Source of the DNA: Terriglobales bacterium
Lineage (GTDB): Bacteria; Acidobacteriota; Terriglobia; Terriglobales; Acidobacteriaceae
Direction of reading: 5' to 3'
NCBI GenBank assembly: GCA_025462725.1
Contig: JAOAPE010000012.1
Coordinates: 359,942-423,941 of the forward strand
DNA: 64,000 nt
In this document: positions 45,387 through 50,600 of the stretch, one piece after another
How positions within the stretch are numbered: position 1 is the stretch's first letter
Layout of the letters: every line of letters begins with the position of its first letter
Notes under the pieces: model-generated
Databases searched by the model: none
The model's input: the letters and a program-made list of their open reading frames with translations, nothing else
Told to the model about the DNA's origin: nothing
Translations under genes and position numbers: made by a program

Positions 45387-45773
45387 TTGTCTGAATCACC
45401 CCCACGCATCCTTTGTATCTCATACGACGAGTCATTGTTGCTCACGCGCAAAATGATTCTTGAGCAAGCTGGCTTCGATGTGACAGCTGCTCTTGGCTTC
45501 GCTGAAGCCATGGAGCATTGCTCCGCCAATCCAACATTTCACCTCATCGTCATGGGTCACTCCATGCCGCGCAAAGACAAGACTGCTCTGATTAAGACAT
45601 TGCGTCCCACTTGTAAGTCCCCGGTGCTTTCAGTTCGGAAACATGGCGATGCACCACTTCCAGAAGCTAACGCCTCAGTGGATTCTTATGACGGCCCCGC
45701 TAAACTGATCCAAGCGGTCAAGAGCACTATTGCAGCAGCTGGCAAATCAGCATCCGCTACTTCGGAGGGCTAG
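45387..45773 (+). CDS. Receiver-like protein 1 lacking the phosphoacceptor Asp
   Basis: A 128-residue protein with a receiver fold pattern: ILCISYDESLLLTRKMILEQAG, then VTAALGFAEAMEHC and LIVMGHSMPRKDK. In a true receiver the residue three before MP is the phosphorylated Asp (DxxMP); here it is Gly (GHSMP). One acidic residue of the Mg2+ site (YDES) remains. The start is TTG 45387 with GAGG 9 nt upstream. The stop touches the ATG of the C2HC mini-protein gene (TAGATG), so the two are coupled. It is the first of four related genes in 3.5 kb and the best preserved. Confidence 0.75.
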   Translation: MSESPPRILCISYDESLLLTRKMILEQAGFDVTAALGFAEAMEHCSANPTFHLIVMGHSMPRKDKTALIKTLRPTCKSPVLSVRKHGDAPLPEANASVDSYDGPAKLIQAVKSTIAAAGKSASATSEG

Positions 45774-45992
45774 ATGTCACACCGCAAGAATGGCCCAACC
45801 GATTCATACTTCAAGCGGAAACGGATCGGAGACAACGAACCAAATTCTGCGATGGTAATTCAATCAACCTGTGTGCATTGCGGAGAGGTTTTTGAAGGCG
45901 ACGTTACACAGGGCTTAAAAGAGAAAGAGATTCAGCACACCATCAATTGCGCGAAGGGGAAAGCAGCTAGAACCACAATCCACATCGTTTAG
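45774..45992 (+). CDS. C2HC zinc-finger-like mini-protein 1
   Basis: A 72-residue protein with a basic N-terminus (YFKRKRIGD) and a C-x2-C-x18-H-x3-C motif (CVHCGEVFEGDV..QHTINC) that could hold one zinc ion. A paralogue of 64 residues lies at 46663-46857 with the same KRKR and CGEV..GD.T.GLKEKE..QH features. Both follow a receiver-like gene. Likely small DNA-, RNA- or protein-binding factor; no known family was recognised. Confidence 0.65.
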   Translation: MSHRKNGPTDSYFKRKRIGDNEPNSAMVIQSTCVHCGEVFEGDVTQGLKEKEIQHTINCAKGKAARTTIHIV

Positions 45993-46010: not shown

Positions 46011-46070
46011 AGTTGCCGAGTGCCGGGTGTCGCGTTCATTGCGAAATAATGAGTGGGCGAGACTTCTGAG
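46011..46070 (+). repeat. Partial copy D of the structured repeat
   Basis: Contains GTGCCGGGT and the hairpin CATTG-CGAAA-TAATG (G-T pair at the stem top) followed by AGTGGGCGAG, matching the 5' part of copies A-C. The 3' stems of the full element are absent. It lies before receiver-like gene 2. Confidence 0.6.
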
Positions 46071-46183
46071 TCCTGCACGTAAGTGCTTGGAAAGCATGAT
46101 GGCCTTTTCCTTTTTCAAAACCGCATGATTTACCTCTTTTGTGCGGCTTAGCCTTTCTGGTACTCTGCTTTTAGTCCTCAGTA

Positions 46184-46540
46184 ATGCCCATCGATAAACA
46201 AATCCTTTCCGTCGCGGAAGACGAGTCCGTTCGTCGCACGAAGCACATGCTCTTAGAAGAGATTGGCTTCAGTGTCGTGTCAGTAAGCACGTTGCGAGAA
46301 GTGGAGTACGTGATTAACAAGTCGAAGTTCGACTTAGTGATCATTGGCCGTGCGGTGAATGAAACGCTCAAGCGGTCGGTCGCCGATGCCAGCAGGCGCA
46401 GCCTTCCACAGACACCCATCCTGGAACTTTGTAACGTCTCCCCTGTCATTACAGGTGCGGAGTATGTTCTGCGTAATCCCAGTCCTGACGAACTCGCGGA
46501 ACTCGTGAAGTCTATTTTTCATCCAAAGAAACCCAAATAA
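46184..46540 (+). CDS. Receiver-like protein 2 lacking the phosphoacceptor Asp
   Basis: A 118-residue paralogue of the protein at 45387: ILSVAEDESVRRTKHMLLEEIGF, then SVVSVSTLREVEYVI and FDLVIIGRAVNETLKRS. The Asp position is again Gly (IIGRAV) and the MP after it is lost. The EDES acidic pair is kept. It has no HTH. A C2HC mini-protein gene follows 122 bp later, repeating the order of the first pair. Probably a phosphorylation-independent protein or ligand sensor. Confidence 0.72.
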   Translation: MPIDKQILSVAEDESVRRTKHMLLEEIGFSVVSVSTLREVEYVINKSKFDLVIIGRAVNETLKRSVADASRRSLPQTPILELCNVSPVITGAEYVLRNPSPDELAELVKSIFHPKKPK

Positions 46541-46662
46541 CTGATTCGCAGATCTGATCCGAAGAAAGCCGTTCCGGTTTCCATTCGTACAACAAAGGAC
46601 TTCCAAAACTTGCCTTAACCATTCCGAGCGTAACGTTCAGGTTAGAGTAGGATGGCAGCATT

Positions 46663-46857
46663 ATGAAGAACGCAATGAATGACCGTTTCAAGCGAAAGAG
46701 GCTTGACGGGGGCGTGCTTGTCATCGAATCGACCTGTGTTCTGTGCGGTGAGGTACTTGTCGGAGACATCACAGACGGTTTGAAGGAAAAAGAAGAGCAG
46801 CATGTCCTGGAACAATGCCCGCAAGAGAGTGGTAAGAGAGCCATTCATCTCGCATAG
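46663..46857 (+). CDS. C2HC zinc-finger-like mini-protein 2
   Basis: A 64-residue paralogue of the protein at 45774: DRFKRKRLDG basic start, then C-x2-C-x18-H-x4-C (CVLCGEVLVGDI..EQHVLEQC). The zinc ligands and the GLKEKE segment are conserved while linker residues differ, which argues that the reading frame is under selection. AGGATGG lies a few bases before the ATG. Confidence 0.65.
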   Translation: MKNAMNDRFKRKRLDGGVLVIESTCVLCGEVLVGDITDGLKEKEEQHVLEQCPQESGKRAIHLA

Positions 46858-46879
46858 CTAGCAACGAAGAACCGGCAAG

Positions 46880-47135
46880 GTGCCCCACTCATTGCGATGC
46901 CGGGTGCGCCATTTATTGCTATGCAATGAGTGCGAGAGTAGATCCCACGAGGCGCAAGTTGACGTCTTGCTGGAAGTGAGAGCGGGTAGAGTAGCTGGTG
47001 CCGAAACCCCAAAACGGCAACCCCGAGCGGCGCTCGTCCTAAGGACAGGGTCACGCGGCTCGGGGCTTGGGCCGTTCGTCACGACATCCAGCATCTTAAT
47101 TGCGGAACATGAAGATAAGCTTAAGACAAGTACGC
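46880..47135 (+). repeat. Copy A of the structured repeat (candidate ncRNA or MITE-like element)
   Basis: Stem 1 ATTGC-TAT-GCAAT at 46915-46927; stem 2 GCAAG/CTTGC near 46950-46970; conserved single-stranded GAGTAGCTGGTG at 46989-47000; stem 3 CCCCGAGC (47021-47028) with GCTCGGGG (47058-47065), enclosing an inner CCT/AGG; stem 4 around CGTTCGTCACG near 47073-47083; then a conserved tail CATCCAGCATCTTAATTGCGG. It fills most of the 378-bp gap before the receiver-HTH gene at 47236. Confidence 0.65.
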
Positions 47136-47235
47136 CAATATGTGCCGCTGGCTCACTTACGAGCGGACCGTCGTCTAAAAACAATAGGCATCAAATTTTG
47201 GAAACCAAGTTTCACGCGGTAAGGAACAACATATC

Positions 47236-47838
47236 TTGCATTCCATTCTAGCCGTCGGTGGTACACCAGAGCTCACGATTCTCCGTAACCAGGTTCTGAT
47301 CTCGCGTGGTTTTTCGGTGGTCAGTGTCTCCCATTTATCCTATGCAATCCCTGTCTTCCATTCGTCTAGTTTCCATGCAGTGATTCTCTGTTACACCGTT
47401 ATTGAGAGAATGTCGAAAAGAGAGCTCACGCCGATGATGCGTCAATTTCAGGATATTCCTGTTTTAAGCTTTAACAGGCAGATCTCACCCGAGCGGGACA
47501 ATCTTCTGCTTATCTCACCCGCTAAGAGCGAGCTCAAGGGCCTCGGTGCTTCGGAGCAGTTGGTTAGTGACTTGCAAGCCTTGTTTCGATTGAAAACCGC
47601 TGTTCCGGGATCTCTACAATCGTGGAAAGAAATTTCCACGTACATGAATCGCCCGATAAGGACATTACAGCGCTGGGAAACAAAGTTCAGTCTGCCCATT
47701 CATCGGCCTTCCAATCATGACCGCAGCGCAGTTTTCGCGTTGAAGCCAGAGATTGACGAATGGATGAGAAATAACCGCAAATGCCACGAGACAAAAAGTA
47801 CCCCGGAGCTGCCAGAGAAAATGTCCAGAGCAGCTTAG
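47236..47838 (+). CDS. Receiver-like domain fused to a C-terminal HTH, protein 3
   Basis: A 200-residue regulator-like protein. Residues 1-115 resemble a receiver (ILAVGGTPELTILRNQVLISRGF, SVVSVSHLSYAIPVF, VILCYTVIERMSKRE) but the Asp position is Cys and the acidic pair is lost. Residues about 128-185 are an HTH of the MerR/excisionase-like sort (LQSWKEISTYMNRPIRTLQRWE, LPIHRPSNHDRSAVFA, IDEWM). The start is TTG 47236 with AAGGA 10 nt upstream. It lies directly after repeat copy A. Confidence 0.75.
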   Translation: MHSILAVGGTPELTILRNQVLISRGFSVVSVSHLSYAIPVFHSSSFHAVILCYTVIERMSKRELTPMMRQFQDIPVLSFNRQISPERDNLLLISPAKSELKGLGASEQLVSDLQALFRLKTAVPGSLQSWKEISTYMNRPIRTLQRWETKFSLPIHRPSNHDRSAVFALKPEIDEWMRNNRKCHETKSTPELPEKMSRAA

Positions 47839-47864
47839 TTCTGGAAGGCCCTTCTTTTCTTTGA

Positions 47865-48125
47865 TGTGCCGGGTCACCCATTTCATTGCGAAACAATGAG
47901 TGGGCGAGAGTGGATTCCCACAAATCATTCTGGATGAGCAAAGTCGGCGTCGCACTTAAAATACGGGCCGAAGGCGCAACTCGGCGCGGTGCGCCGGGGT
48001 TAAGACGACATAGAGTAGCTGGTGTAGTCCTCAAATGGAACCCCGGGCGGCGCTCGTCCTTATGCATGAGGGTCACGCGGCTCGGGGGCTCGGTCGTTCG
48101 TTGAACGACATTCAGCACGATAAAT
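47865..48125 (+). repeat. Copy B of the structured repeat
   Basis: Stem 1 CATTG-CGAAA-CAATG at 47884-47898; stem 2 changed to GGCGCA/TGCGCC near 47973-47995; GAGTAGCTGGTG at 48013-48024; stem 3 CCCCGGGC (48041-48048) with GCTCGGGG (48080-48087), an A-T pair of copies A and C becoming G-T; inner CCTT/GAGG; stem 4 GTCGTTC-GTT-GAACGAC near 48093-48109. The stems persist although the bases change. It lies before receiver-HTH gene 4. Confidence 0.65.
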
Positions 48126-48246
48126 CACCCACCTAACTTCTGGCAGCAACAATGGTGCGTCAATTTGCGCCAGTGCGTAAAACCTGCGAAAACTTAGCAC
48201 CATTTCTGCTACAAAGGATTCAAAGTTGTTCATGAAGGAGGATTTC

Positions 48247-48849
48247 ATGCAATCAATTCTTTCGATTTGCATGGATCTCGAAGCCAGCATTCTTCTTCCC
48301 TTAATGTCCCGCGATATTCATGTTGTGTCCGTATCCCATGTTGCTCATGCGGCTCCAGTGTTCCGCGCCACCCTCTTCAATGCTGTGATCCTGGGCTACT
48401 CAGTCACCGAGAAGATGTCACAAAGAGAGTTGAGGACGTTCGTGCGTAATTTCGGGGATTCGCTCGTTTTGGTATCGGGCAACGCGATCTCGCCAAATCA
48501 GAAATCCCTCGTTCAGCTCTCGCCAGGGACAGTTGAACCTGGTCGGAACGGCAAGCCAGCGCAGTTATTGTTTGAATTGCAAGAGGTGTTCCAATCGACA
48601 ACGACAACTGCTGCTCAGGTATCGCTACAGTCCTGGAAAGAAATATCTGCCTACATGGGTCGCGGAATCCGGACGTTGCAGCGATGGGAAAAGAAGTTCG
48701 GATTGCCCATCCATCGTCCTTCGCATCGTGAACGTAGCGCAATTTTCGCGCTGAGAGCTGAACTTGATGAATGGATGAGAAGCACCCGAATACATCATTT
48801 GAGAGCAGATGAACTGGAAGAACCAAAGAAGCAGTCCAGAAAGGACTAG
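48247..48849 (+). CDS. Receiver-like domain fused to a C-terminal HTH, protein 4
   Basis: A 200-residue paralogue of protein 3. The receiver-like part (ILSICMDLEASILLPLMSRD, HVVSVSHVAHAAPVF, VILGYSVTEKMSQRE) has Gly at the phosphoacceptor site; the C-terminal HTH (LQSWKEISAYMGRGIRTLQRWE, LPIHRPSHRERSAIFA, LDEWM) is the better conserved half. Start at ATG 48247 was chosen because AAGGAGG lies 5 nt upstream; the earlier ATG 48232 overlaps that site. Confidence 0.78.
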   Translation: MQSILSICMDLEASILLPLMSRDIHVVSVSHVAHAAPVFRATLFNAVILGYSVTEKMSQRELRTFVRNFGDSLVLVSGNAISPNQKSLVQLSPGTVEPGRNGKPAQLLFELQEVFQSTTTTAAQVSLQSWKEISAYMGRGIRTLQRWEKKFGLPIHRPSHRERSAIFALRAELDEWMRSTRIHHLRADELEEPKKQSRKD

Positions 48850-48898
48850 CTCTGCACAATCCGATTCATTGATCGGCTTGCGAGTTTTCGGAACAGTA

Positions 48899-49435
48899 TT
48901 ACTGCCCGGCTATTACGCGCTTGCCCTGTGAGCAATTTACACCTGCACACAGAAATTGCTCAAGCGCAGGCCTAACGGCATCTAAACTTTCAAACGTCCC
49001 CGGTGGGACCAATTGAGGTTTTAGGTCGAAGTGACAAAGGGTTCCCAACGATCGTCCGTCCGAATAGCGTAGCAAAACTGCACAATAGGCTCTGACTACC
49101 TCTCTTGCCGTGTGTTTCTTCAAGCGAGGGTCCGTCAGGGAATCCGCGATTTCGCAGGATTTCCCGTCGTTGGCTGTCATCATGCAGTACGAATCTTTCC
49201 AAGGCACGTCCGCGCCGATGCGTAGATCTGGATTCTTGCGGTCAAAAAGAACAACGCTTCTTACCCAATCAGGTTTTTCAAACTGGTATACCCCGGTGAA
49301 CCTGTAAATAGATCCCTGATTCAACAGTTGCAATGCCTCAAACAGTCCTTGTTCTTCGAGTGCCAGCGCAAAGTCGCAAACAAACTTTGATGGAAACGAC
49401 AGGTTCTTTCCTGATCCATCAGCCCACGGACGCAT
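48899..49435 (-). CDS. GAF-domain-like protein
   Basis: A 178-residue cytoplasmic protein. The pattern FTGVYQFEKPDWVRSVVLFDR, then DSYCMMTANDGKSCEIADSL and YCAVLLRYSDGRSLGTLCHFDL follows the strand order of GAF sensory domains. No output domain is attached. It is convergent with receiver-HTH gene 4, and may be part of the same regulatory neighbourhood. Ligand unknown. Confidence 0.65.
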   Translation of the reverse strand: MRPWADGSGKNLSFPSKFVCDFALALEEQGLFEALQLLNQGSIYRFTGVYQFEKPDWVRSVVLFDRKNPDLRIGADVPWKDSYCMMTANDGKSCEIADSLTDPRLKKHTAREVVRAYCAVLLRYSDGRSLGTLCHFDLKPQLVPPGTFESLDAVRPALEQFLCAGVNCSQGKRVIAGQ

Positions 49436-49600
49436 TTATCAGTGCCTCAACCAAAAAATTAACTCTATTTGTTAATACTATGCCCATTCTTTTCAAGGTA
49501 TGAACGATTCGCAACAATGATATTCAATCAATCCCGGCTGTTCTTTGTACGCTGAAGTTTTACCGCTGCTCTCTCAAGTGTTTGAATCTTGCAAGCGTCA

Positions 49601-50045
49601 TCGCGACCAGCAGCCGGGTGCCCATTCATTGCGAAGCGATAAGTGGGCGAGAGTGGATTCCCGTAAATCATCCTAGTTCAGCAAATCGGCGCAGCGATTT
49701 CGTATTCAAGCTTCCATCCCGCGATAACAGAACTAAAGCGACACTAAGGGTCTAACGATCTCCATTTCATGCCGAAATGACAACGCAAGCCACTGGCCAC
49801 TATCGATCAAGTAGTTCGGCAAGGCGCAAGTCGGCGTCTTGCCTTGAGTTCAGAGAGCATAGAGTAGCTGGTGCTGTAACCCCAAACGGCAACCCCGAGC
49901 GGCGCTCGTCCTGATGAACAGGGTCACGCGGCTCGGGGGCTTCGGTCGTTCATCACGACATCCAGCATCTTAATTGCGGAACCTGAAGATAGGCTTAAAG
50001 CCAAGTACGCCAAGTGCCCGTTCATTGCGAAGCAATGAGTGGCTG
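49601..50045 (+). repeat. Copy C of the structured repeat, enlarged, with a second stem 1
   Basis: Begins AGCCGGGTGCCCATTCATTGCGAAGCGAT (in two parts, 49611-49640); contains stem 2 GGCAAGGCGC/GGCGTCTTGCC at about 49818-49843; GAGTAGCTGGTG at 49862-49873; stem 3 CCCCGAGC (49893-49900) and GCTCGGGG (49931-49938) with inner CCTG/CAGG; stem 4 GTCGT/ACGAC near 49946-49960; the same 3' tail as copy A; and ends with a perfect stem 1 CATTGC-GAA-GCAATG at 50023-50037. TCGCGACCAGCAGC at 49601-49614 recurs at 50253-50266. Confidence 0.65.
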
Positions 50046-50600
50046 CAAATCTAACGACCTCCATTTAATCACTTTCAGTTGCTACACCGGCACTGAGACT
50101 GCTTTCTTCGTATCTCGGAAGAACGAATTTCTTCGTGATCGGCTAATACCGAGCACGTCCTTGGTCTGTGAATCAAAATTGTTTCCCGTTGGCTGCACGC
50201 TATTGCAGACCTACGCCCTTGCGCGATTCAAACAGTTGGCTTAGCAGCGTTGTCGCGACCAGCAGCAGGCAGCCGCTGAACGGGAGCACGGAAAAGAGAG
50301 GAAATAATGGCGAGATGAAATTCAATCGGTTCAAAACATTTTCCTTTTCAAATAGAAACCCGATTCGTTTCGAATTGATTCGCCAAACGTAGCAAAGAAA
50401 TCTAAAATTTTTTCTTTCAGAACCGCCGCAACTTATCTTGCATGATTCGGTATCGCACAATTCACTCTGGCTCGTGTCTTCAAACATTCACTCCTTCCGA
50501 CATCCCGCATGCTTCTTTTTGAATTCCTATATGCCCCTTCCACATCGAGCAGCATAGGATTCAACGCCTGCGTGGCCTGCATCAGAAGTAACGTGGATTC
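50046..50600. other. AT-rich intergenic stretch, no gene seen
   Basis: No convincing coding frame. It holds the second TCGCGACCAGCAGC (50253-50266) and a second copy of a CTAACGA.CTCCATTT sequence (about 50052-50070, first copy about 49751-49770). The AT-rich part at 50320-50420 may include the promoter for the cytochrome operon, but no clear boxes were found. Confidence 0.45.

Follow-up and report, generated by a model that had tools for sequence, protein, structure and literature searches.

The window considered here, a stretch of 64,000 nucleotides from a Terriglobales bacterium (family Acidobacteriaceae; assembly GCA_025462725.1, contig JAOAPE010000012.1, positions 359,942 to 423,941), holds a tandem series of genes for receiver-like and helix-turn-helix (HTH) proteins, separated by intergenic repeats. 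A first-pass annotation had described these repeats as one element of 240-450 bp with four conserved stem-loops, present in three full copies (A, B and C) and a partial one (D). The repeats are real but composite: a dispersed palindrome resembling repetitive extragenic palindromic (REP) sequences and a core hairpin of ~45 nt had been merged, and the single long element dissolves into REP-like palindromes, a spacer and the core.

Composition of the repeats in the window

An alignment of four copies revealed ~190 nt common to A, B, C and a paralogue on another contig of the same genome (C81:6128-6270), which is 76-78% identical. These nucleotides comprise, in order, a hairpin built around AAGGCGCAAGTCGGCGTCTT, then TAGAGTAGCT, the core and a further small hairpin; the C81 copy has the second hairpin, TAGAGTAGCT and the core, and lacks hairpin 1. 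The earlier description was accurate in part. The motif order proposed for A, B and C is present (hairpin 1, a second hairpin with AAGGCGCAAGTCGGCGTCTT, TAGAGTAGCTGGTG, the CCCCGAGC/GCTCGGGG hairpin and a fourth small one), and so are the stem changes it cited, namely CCCCGGGC/GCTCGGGG and GGCGCA/TGCGCC in B, and CCTT/GAGG versus CCTG/CAGG in the inner stem. On the other hand, the tail CATCTTAATTGCGG occurs in A and C only, B having CACGATAAATCACC, and the motif CGTCACGACAT is exact in A alone. Moreover, D is hairpin 1 by itself and, hairpin 1 being a separate dispersed palindrome, does not represent a partial element. The parts are as follows:

47021..47065, plus strand: core hairpin, copy A (sequence; covariance-model match 47011-47075, 67.0 bits)
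48041..48087, plus strand: core hairpin, copy B (covariance-model match 48031-48097, 69.0 bits)
49893..49938, plus strand: core hairpin, copy C (covariance-model match 49883-49948, 63.8 bits)
46949..46970, plus strand: upstream hairpin (AGGCGCAAGTTGACGTCTT), copy A (copy alignment)
47973..47995, plus strand: upstream hairpin GGCGCA/TGCGCC, copy B (copy alignment, sequence)
49818..49843, plus strand: upstream hairpin GGCAAGGCGC/GCGTCTTGCC, copy C (copy alignment, sequence)
48093..48109, plus strand: small hairpin 3' of the core, copy B, GTCGTTC GTT GAACGAC (sequence; folding z-scores over 26 loci)
49945..49959, plus strand: small hairpin 3' of the core, copy C, GTCGT TCATC ACGAC (sequence; folding z-scores over 26 loci)
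46021..46061, plus strand: REP-like palindrome, "copy D", not the core element (repeat family D2; dispersed copies in congeners)
46898..46938, plus strand: REP-like palindrome before copy A (repeat comparison)
47868..47908, plus strand: REP-like palindrome before copy B (repeat comparison)
49611..49651, plus strand: REP-like palindrome at the 5' end of the copy C first described (repeat comparison)
50007..50047, plus strand: REP-like palindrome at the 3' end of that copy C (repeat comparison)

Hairpin 1 (CATTGCGAAGCAATG) differs from the core element in standing alone at D and twice around C and in its absence from the C81 copy. Its family, with the layout GGTGCCCCA-(variable stem)-TGGGCGAG, is dispersed in two congeners of genus g1, Candidatus Angelobacter sp. 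RYN_9 (G001) and Acidobacteriaceae bacterium RYN_13 (G003), where a pattern search found 15 and 8 copies, respectively, with one exact copy in the genome of the window itself (G000). Further degenerate copies lie in the window, and those abundant in the two congeners have many alternative stems. Like the REP sequences and bacterial interspersed mosaic elements of the GTAG- and CGTC-tagged superfamilies (PMC3733652), the GGTGCCCCA...TGGGCGAG module is a short intergenic palindrome within the 20-60 bp range, with many copies per genome; no clear GTAG or CGTC tag was seen on it by eye. Hairpin-1-like palindromes are separate REP-like repeats sharing the same intergenic spaces as the core. What sets the core apart from such REP elements (PMC3733652) is that an internal loop carries the conserved letters, that both stems vary, that an orthologous site is kept between species and that a terminal tag is lacking.

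Structure, covariation and distribution of the core hairpin

A covariance model was built as R1 and then refined as R2, and each version was run through 398 genomes of the family, as well as through genomes of the class and chosen genomes. The convincing set comprises 26 intergenic places in nine genomes and three genera of the family: 11 in the own genome, 4 in G001, 3 in G003, 6 in genus g54 (five of its six species) and 2 in G370, from genus g167. The 11 cores of the own genome are A, B, C, the C81 paralogue, one at C33, two at C56 (160285 and 306126) and two each at C40 and C51. Cores A, B and C scored 63-69 bits (E = 3e-18 to 6e-20), being themselves among the training sequences of the model. 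An independent sign beyond chance came from BLAST with copy A or C, which recovered further single cores not only elsewhere in the own genome but also from two congeners and from a different genus of the family.

Read from the outside in, the core consists of a variable outer stem of 5-11 pairs, a G.G mismatch, a GCG/CGC clamp, an asymmetric internal loop, CUCG(U)/UCA, that is near-invariant, and then an inner stem and loop, both variable. The shape is kept across the 26 places while the letters of the stems change. In the alignment of these 26 sequences, which was fitted to the structure, 12 of 16 pairs have changed on both sides, compensatory cells number 47 against 18.2 +/- 3.7 after shuffling (none of 500 shuffles reached as high), and 79.5% of the paired cells do pair, compared with 25-45% when the partner strand is slid. 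A MAFFT alignment of 18 sequences, not fitted to the structure, gave similar figures, with two-sided changes at 10 pairs, 25 compensatory cells versus 11.8 +/- 2.8 shuffled and 79% pairing. Two model-free tests point the same way: outer arms folded with their own partner average -16.0 kcal/mol, compared with -11.8 +/- 0.5 when re-dealt (best of 400 shuffles, -13.4), and the inner stems score 189, compared with 151 +/- 8 for shuffles and at most 183 in 5000 of them. Entire inner stems have been swapped (TTCTTC/GAAGAA; CTCTTCCT/AGGAAGAG), the clamp has become GTG/CAC in one copy and, in the copies of G370, the loop as read by eye has drifted to UUCGAU/AAG with the overall plan kept. Selection on structure, as the first-pass annotation had suspected from a few stem changes, is thus much strengthened, and the core shows the compensatory changes beyond controls that mark structured RNAs in general.

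Outside these three genera, none of the other genera among the 79 sampled in the family gave a convincing core with the covariance models, and a pattern search through 300 genomes of the family matched in only 2 of 79 genera. Several candidates were set aside. Exact-pattern matches outside genus g1 among 299 class genomes were chance matches of coding type, at a rate close to that of the control. Class-wide matches of 20-27 bits, together with those in G055, G333 and G483, either lacked the internal loop or fell in coding-like sequence, the latter being the case for the 28.6-bit match in G055; the match in G424 (28.5 bits with R2) was left out of the convincing set without inspection. Among 59 stretches of public genomes, the outer stem was found only in the acidobacterial metagenome-assembled genomes RYN_9, RYN_13 and LS_FP_2_bin.87 (Acidobacteriales bacterium, G448), the rest being chance. 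Two matches in viral contigs lay inside phage structural genes and had no outer stem, and no core match was obtained from the phages and plasmids searched.

Neighbouring genes, orthologous sites and signs of transcription

Between positions 45387 and 48849, the window encodes tandem receiver-like proteins with a seemingly degenerate phospho-acceptor position (by eye), two of them fused to an HTH domain of the SWKEI type:

47236..47838, plus strand: receiver-like + SWKEI-HTH gene, core A 160 bp upstream and core B downstream (no Pfam family at cut-off)
48247..48849, plus strand: paralogous receiver-like + SWKEI-HTH gene, core B ~150 bp upstream and core C ~1 kb downstream (weak MerR_1/HTH_23 below cut-off)

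The receiver match is weak and stays below the Pfam cut-off, and for the HTH halves Pfam gave no accepted match. Another paralogous receiver/HTH gene lies at C81:5446-6051. Two paralogous small CxxC proteins of 72 and 64 amino acids (45774-45992 and 46663-46857), for which there was no Pfam match, are each encoded between a receiver-like gene and a palindrome or core. The whole cluster, all of it on the plus strand, reads as receiver-like gene, small CxxC gene and palindrome D; receiver-like gene, small CxxC gene and A; receiver-HTH gene and B; receiver-HTH gene and C, with A and B also standing 5' of the next receiver-HTH gene.

The association with these regulators extends beyond the window. 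Six cores, in two genera, are near tandem SWKEI-HTH genes and always on the same strand, and cores less than 500 bp from such genes occur at three loci in the two genera. The own genome has nine SWKEI-type HTH domains; of the four that resemble each other most, three have a core next to them or in the vicinity. In G370, the two cores precede a tandem pair of HTH genes of this type by 155 and 372 bp and share their orientation. Such linkage is unlikely by chance (~0.3% of the genome per locus, by our own estimate). The HTH paralogues at C26, C20, C51 and C56:527707 had no adjacent core, a diverged core lying ~4 kb from the HTH gene at C51:185323, and most other core copies have unrelated neighbours or none downstream.

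Three cores (G000:C56:160285, G001:C164 and G003:C1:7623) all stand between the same peptidase-like and tetratricopeptide repeat (TPR) genes. When G000 and G001 are compared there, only 67 bp align in the ~400-bp gap, corresponding to the core, between flanking genes of roughly 70-79% identity. A second site common to G001 and G003 is found by an alcohol dehydrogenase-like gene, with two tandem units in G003. The retention of the core at an orthologous site therefore favours purifying selection and disfavours a recently mobile element. Within the own genome, L150 (C40) and L227 (C51) are paralogous segments, ~75-85% identical over several hundred bp, in which the similarity of the cores runs ~50 nt farther downstream. 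In another locus (L224, 1459-1643), a diverged core ends next to the start codon of a 39-residue zinc-ribbon-like open reading frame, whose ribosome-binding site could be masked by the 3' strand of the core (CAGGGGC).

Signs of transcription are indirect. The first of the G003 units, which stands alone, has TTGTCA-18-TATAAT ~55 nt upstream (11 of 12 matches) and a U-tailed hairpin 3' of the core. Of the 26 copies, four have a terminator of this kind downstream on the strand of the core and one has it on the opposite strand, with a background of 3.5%; a fifth U-tailed hairpin, at C81, is just under the cut-off used. Over the 26 loci, the 45 nt 3' of the core fold better than shuffles (mean z -1.2) and the 60 nt 5' of it do not (-0.1). 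The strand read here gives the more stable RNA in 15 of 22 copies.

A probable structured RNA family and its alternatives

The core hairpin apparently has not been described in the literature on acidobacterial repeats and RNAs, as far as a non-exhaustive search goes. Rfam 15 (4227 families) had no match in the window, and four loci from three genera gave none above the gathering score, the best hits (E ~0.4-1) being to unrelated families; weak matches to a snoRNA, a lncRNA and the raiA-hairpin were at chance level. The small RNAs (sRNAs) of the CsrB/RsmZ type are multicopy and have hairpins with a conserved protein-binding motif. The core is similar in its several stand-alone copies and in a short conserved motif set among variable stems, but has no GGA loops and only one core per unit. 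Also comparable are Acido-1 (RF01686), Acido-Lenti-1 (RF01687) and other orphan RNAs (PMC2864571), acidobacterial candidates for structured noncoding RNAs which, as the core, have no fixed downstream gene; the core matched neither Acido-1 nor Acido-Lenti-1, nor any other Rfam model, at gathering or relaxed E-value. Annotated sRNAs are very scarce in Acidobacteria, with four distinct ones in one 2022 compilation (PMC9029176). The core is probably a new family of a known kind, the bacterial structured RNA.

Among the candidates put forward in the first-pass annotation, a noncoding RNA family is the one we favour, given a structure conserved at 26 places; a leader function would suit some of the copies, and a miniature inverted-repeat transposable element (MITE) was not supported for the core. 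A, B and C each probably carry a member of a new, narrowly distributed and multicopy family of small structured RNAs, with the internal loop as the predicted docking or ligand site. Several observations weigh against this reading. The congeners G002 and G004 (84% and 71% complete) have no core match, sequence outside the core is hardly common between loci, and the shuffle controls leave the relatedness among sequences in place. Furthermore, the strand preference is modest, promoter or terminator signals occur in a minority of copies, and neither a clear promoter nor a clear terminator was found at copies A, B and C.

The core could instead be a cis-regulatory leader, a hairpin placed in the 5' region of various genes, regulators among them, whose expression it would control on sensing a ligand or protein. 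In line with this idea, A and B precede receiver-HTH genes by ~150 bp, the two copies of G370, in another genus, precede tandem HTH genes, the TPR genes of three species begin 147-160 bp downstream of the core, and a zinc-ribbon gene begins 1 bp past the core match in C51. However, C and C81 stand 3' of their HTH genes, no gene follows closely on the same strand at G003 16151 and 16345, G001:C155, C40a and C56b, some copies lie between convergent genes, and in G425b a terminator separates core and gene. For the TPR and G370 genes, moreover, a -10-like box seen by eye lies by the start codon, downstream of the core. For around half of the copies there is no gene directly 3' on their strand, and the genes that do follow have no common function and belong to different classes. 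The earlier proposal of a leader for receiver genes fits A, B and the two G370 copies, which precede HTH genes, and fails for C, C81 and the copies with a terminator or between convergent genes. A leader role is possible at some copies and does not explain all of them; we regard it as an unlikely account of the family.

Even less probable is a DNA hairpin of mobile or REP/MITE-like nature, spread by a transposase, with stems that would co-vary through recognition of single-stranded or cruciform DNA. The core does occur in many intergenic copies, REP-like palindromes are present in the same genomes, the strand test points to RNA with modest strength, and variable REP stems have been described in other bacteria (PMC3733652). 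Nevertheless, the orthologous site has been kept across species diverged to ~75% identity, and the copies share almost nothing past the core and differ in their outer stems, as a recently copied element would not. The conserved letters lie in the interior, whereas a GTAG/CGTC tag is terminal; the phages and plasmids searched had no copy, and the window and C81 copies are explained by gene duplication (genes 79% identical). The hairpin-1 module, for its part, is REP-like. That duplication also raises the idea of a functionless by-product of tandem gene copying with decaying flanks, as A, B, C and C81 all flank paralogous genes (75% identical in repeat D1, 79% at C81). This is scarcely credible, being already contradicted by cores at many places without such genes, in two other genera and with compensatory changes.

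Under the favoured reading of a structured RNA family, the strand read here would be transcribed as a short RNA of roughly 150-220 nt, either independently or as part of the regulator cluster, and its near-invariant loop would be read by a putative protein or ligand partner. Docking at this loop is likelier than an antisense seed because the conserved letters are in the internal loop, the stems and the apical loop being variable. The copies in the window would have multiplied along with the receiver/HTH genes through duplication of gene plus flank, and the linkage suggests regulation of, or by, these regulators, to whose control the core RNA may belong. A bolder and doubtful version would see the GCG-CUCG(U)/UCA-CGC loop as a new compact aptamer or protein-docking motif (less likely a self-cleaving one) in a family of regulatory RNAs that accompany pseudo-receiver/HTH regulators and take part in their control. 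Acidobacteria are abundant in soil, and a covariation-supported family with a near-invariant internal loop makes RNA regulation in this phylum more open to testing. Its recurrence beside a single class of HTH regulator, seen in two genera, hints where a role may be sought.

Finally, a box like CGCCAACNNGCGCCAAG, with a direct repeat of TTGGCG and a period of ~10 bp, occurs some 40-70 bp after several cores and upstream of -10-like boxes (in loci L153, L154 and L226, and at 47115-47140 and 49990-50015 of the window), and is possibly a transcription factor site.

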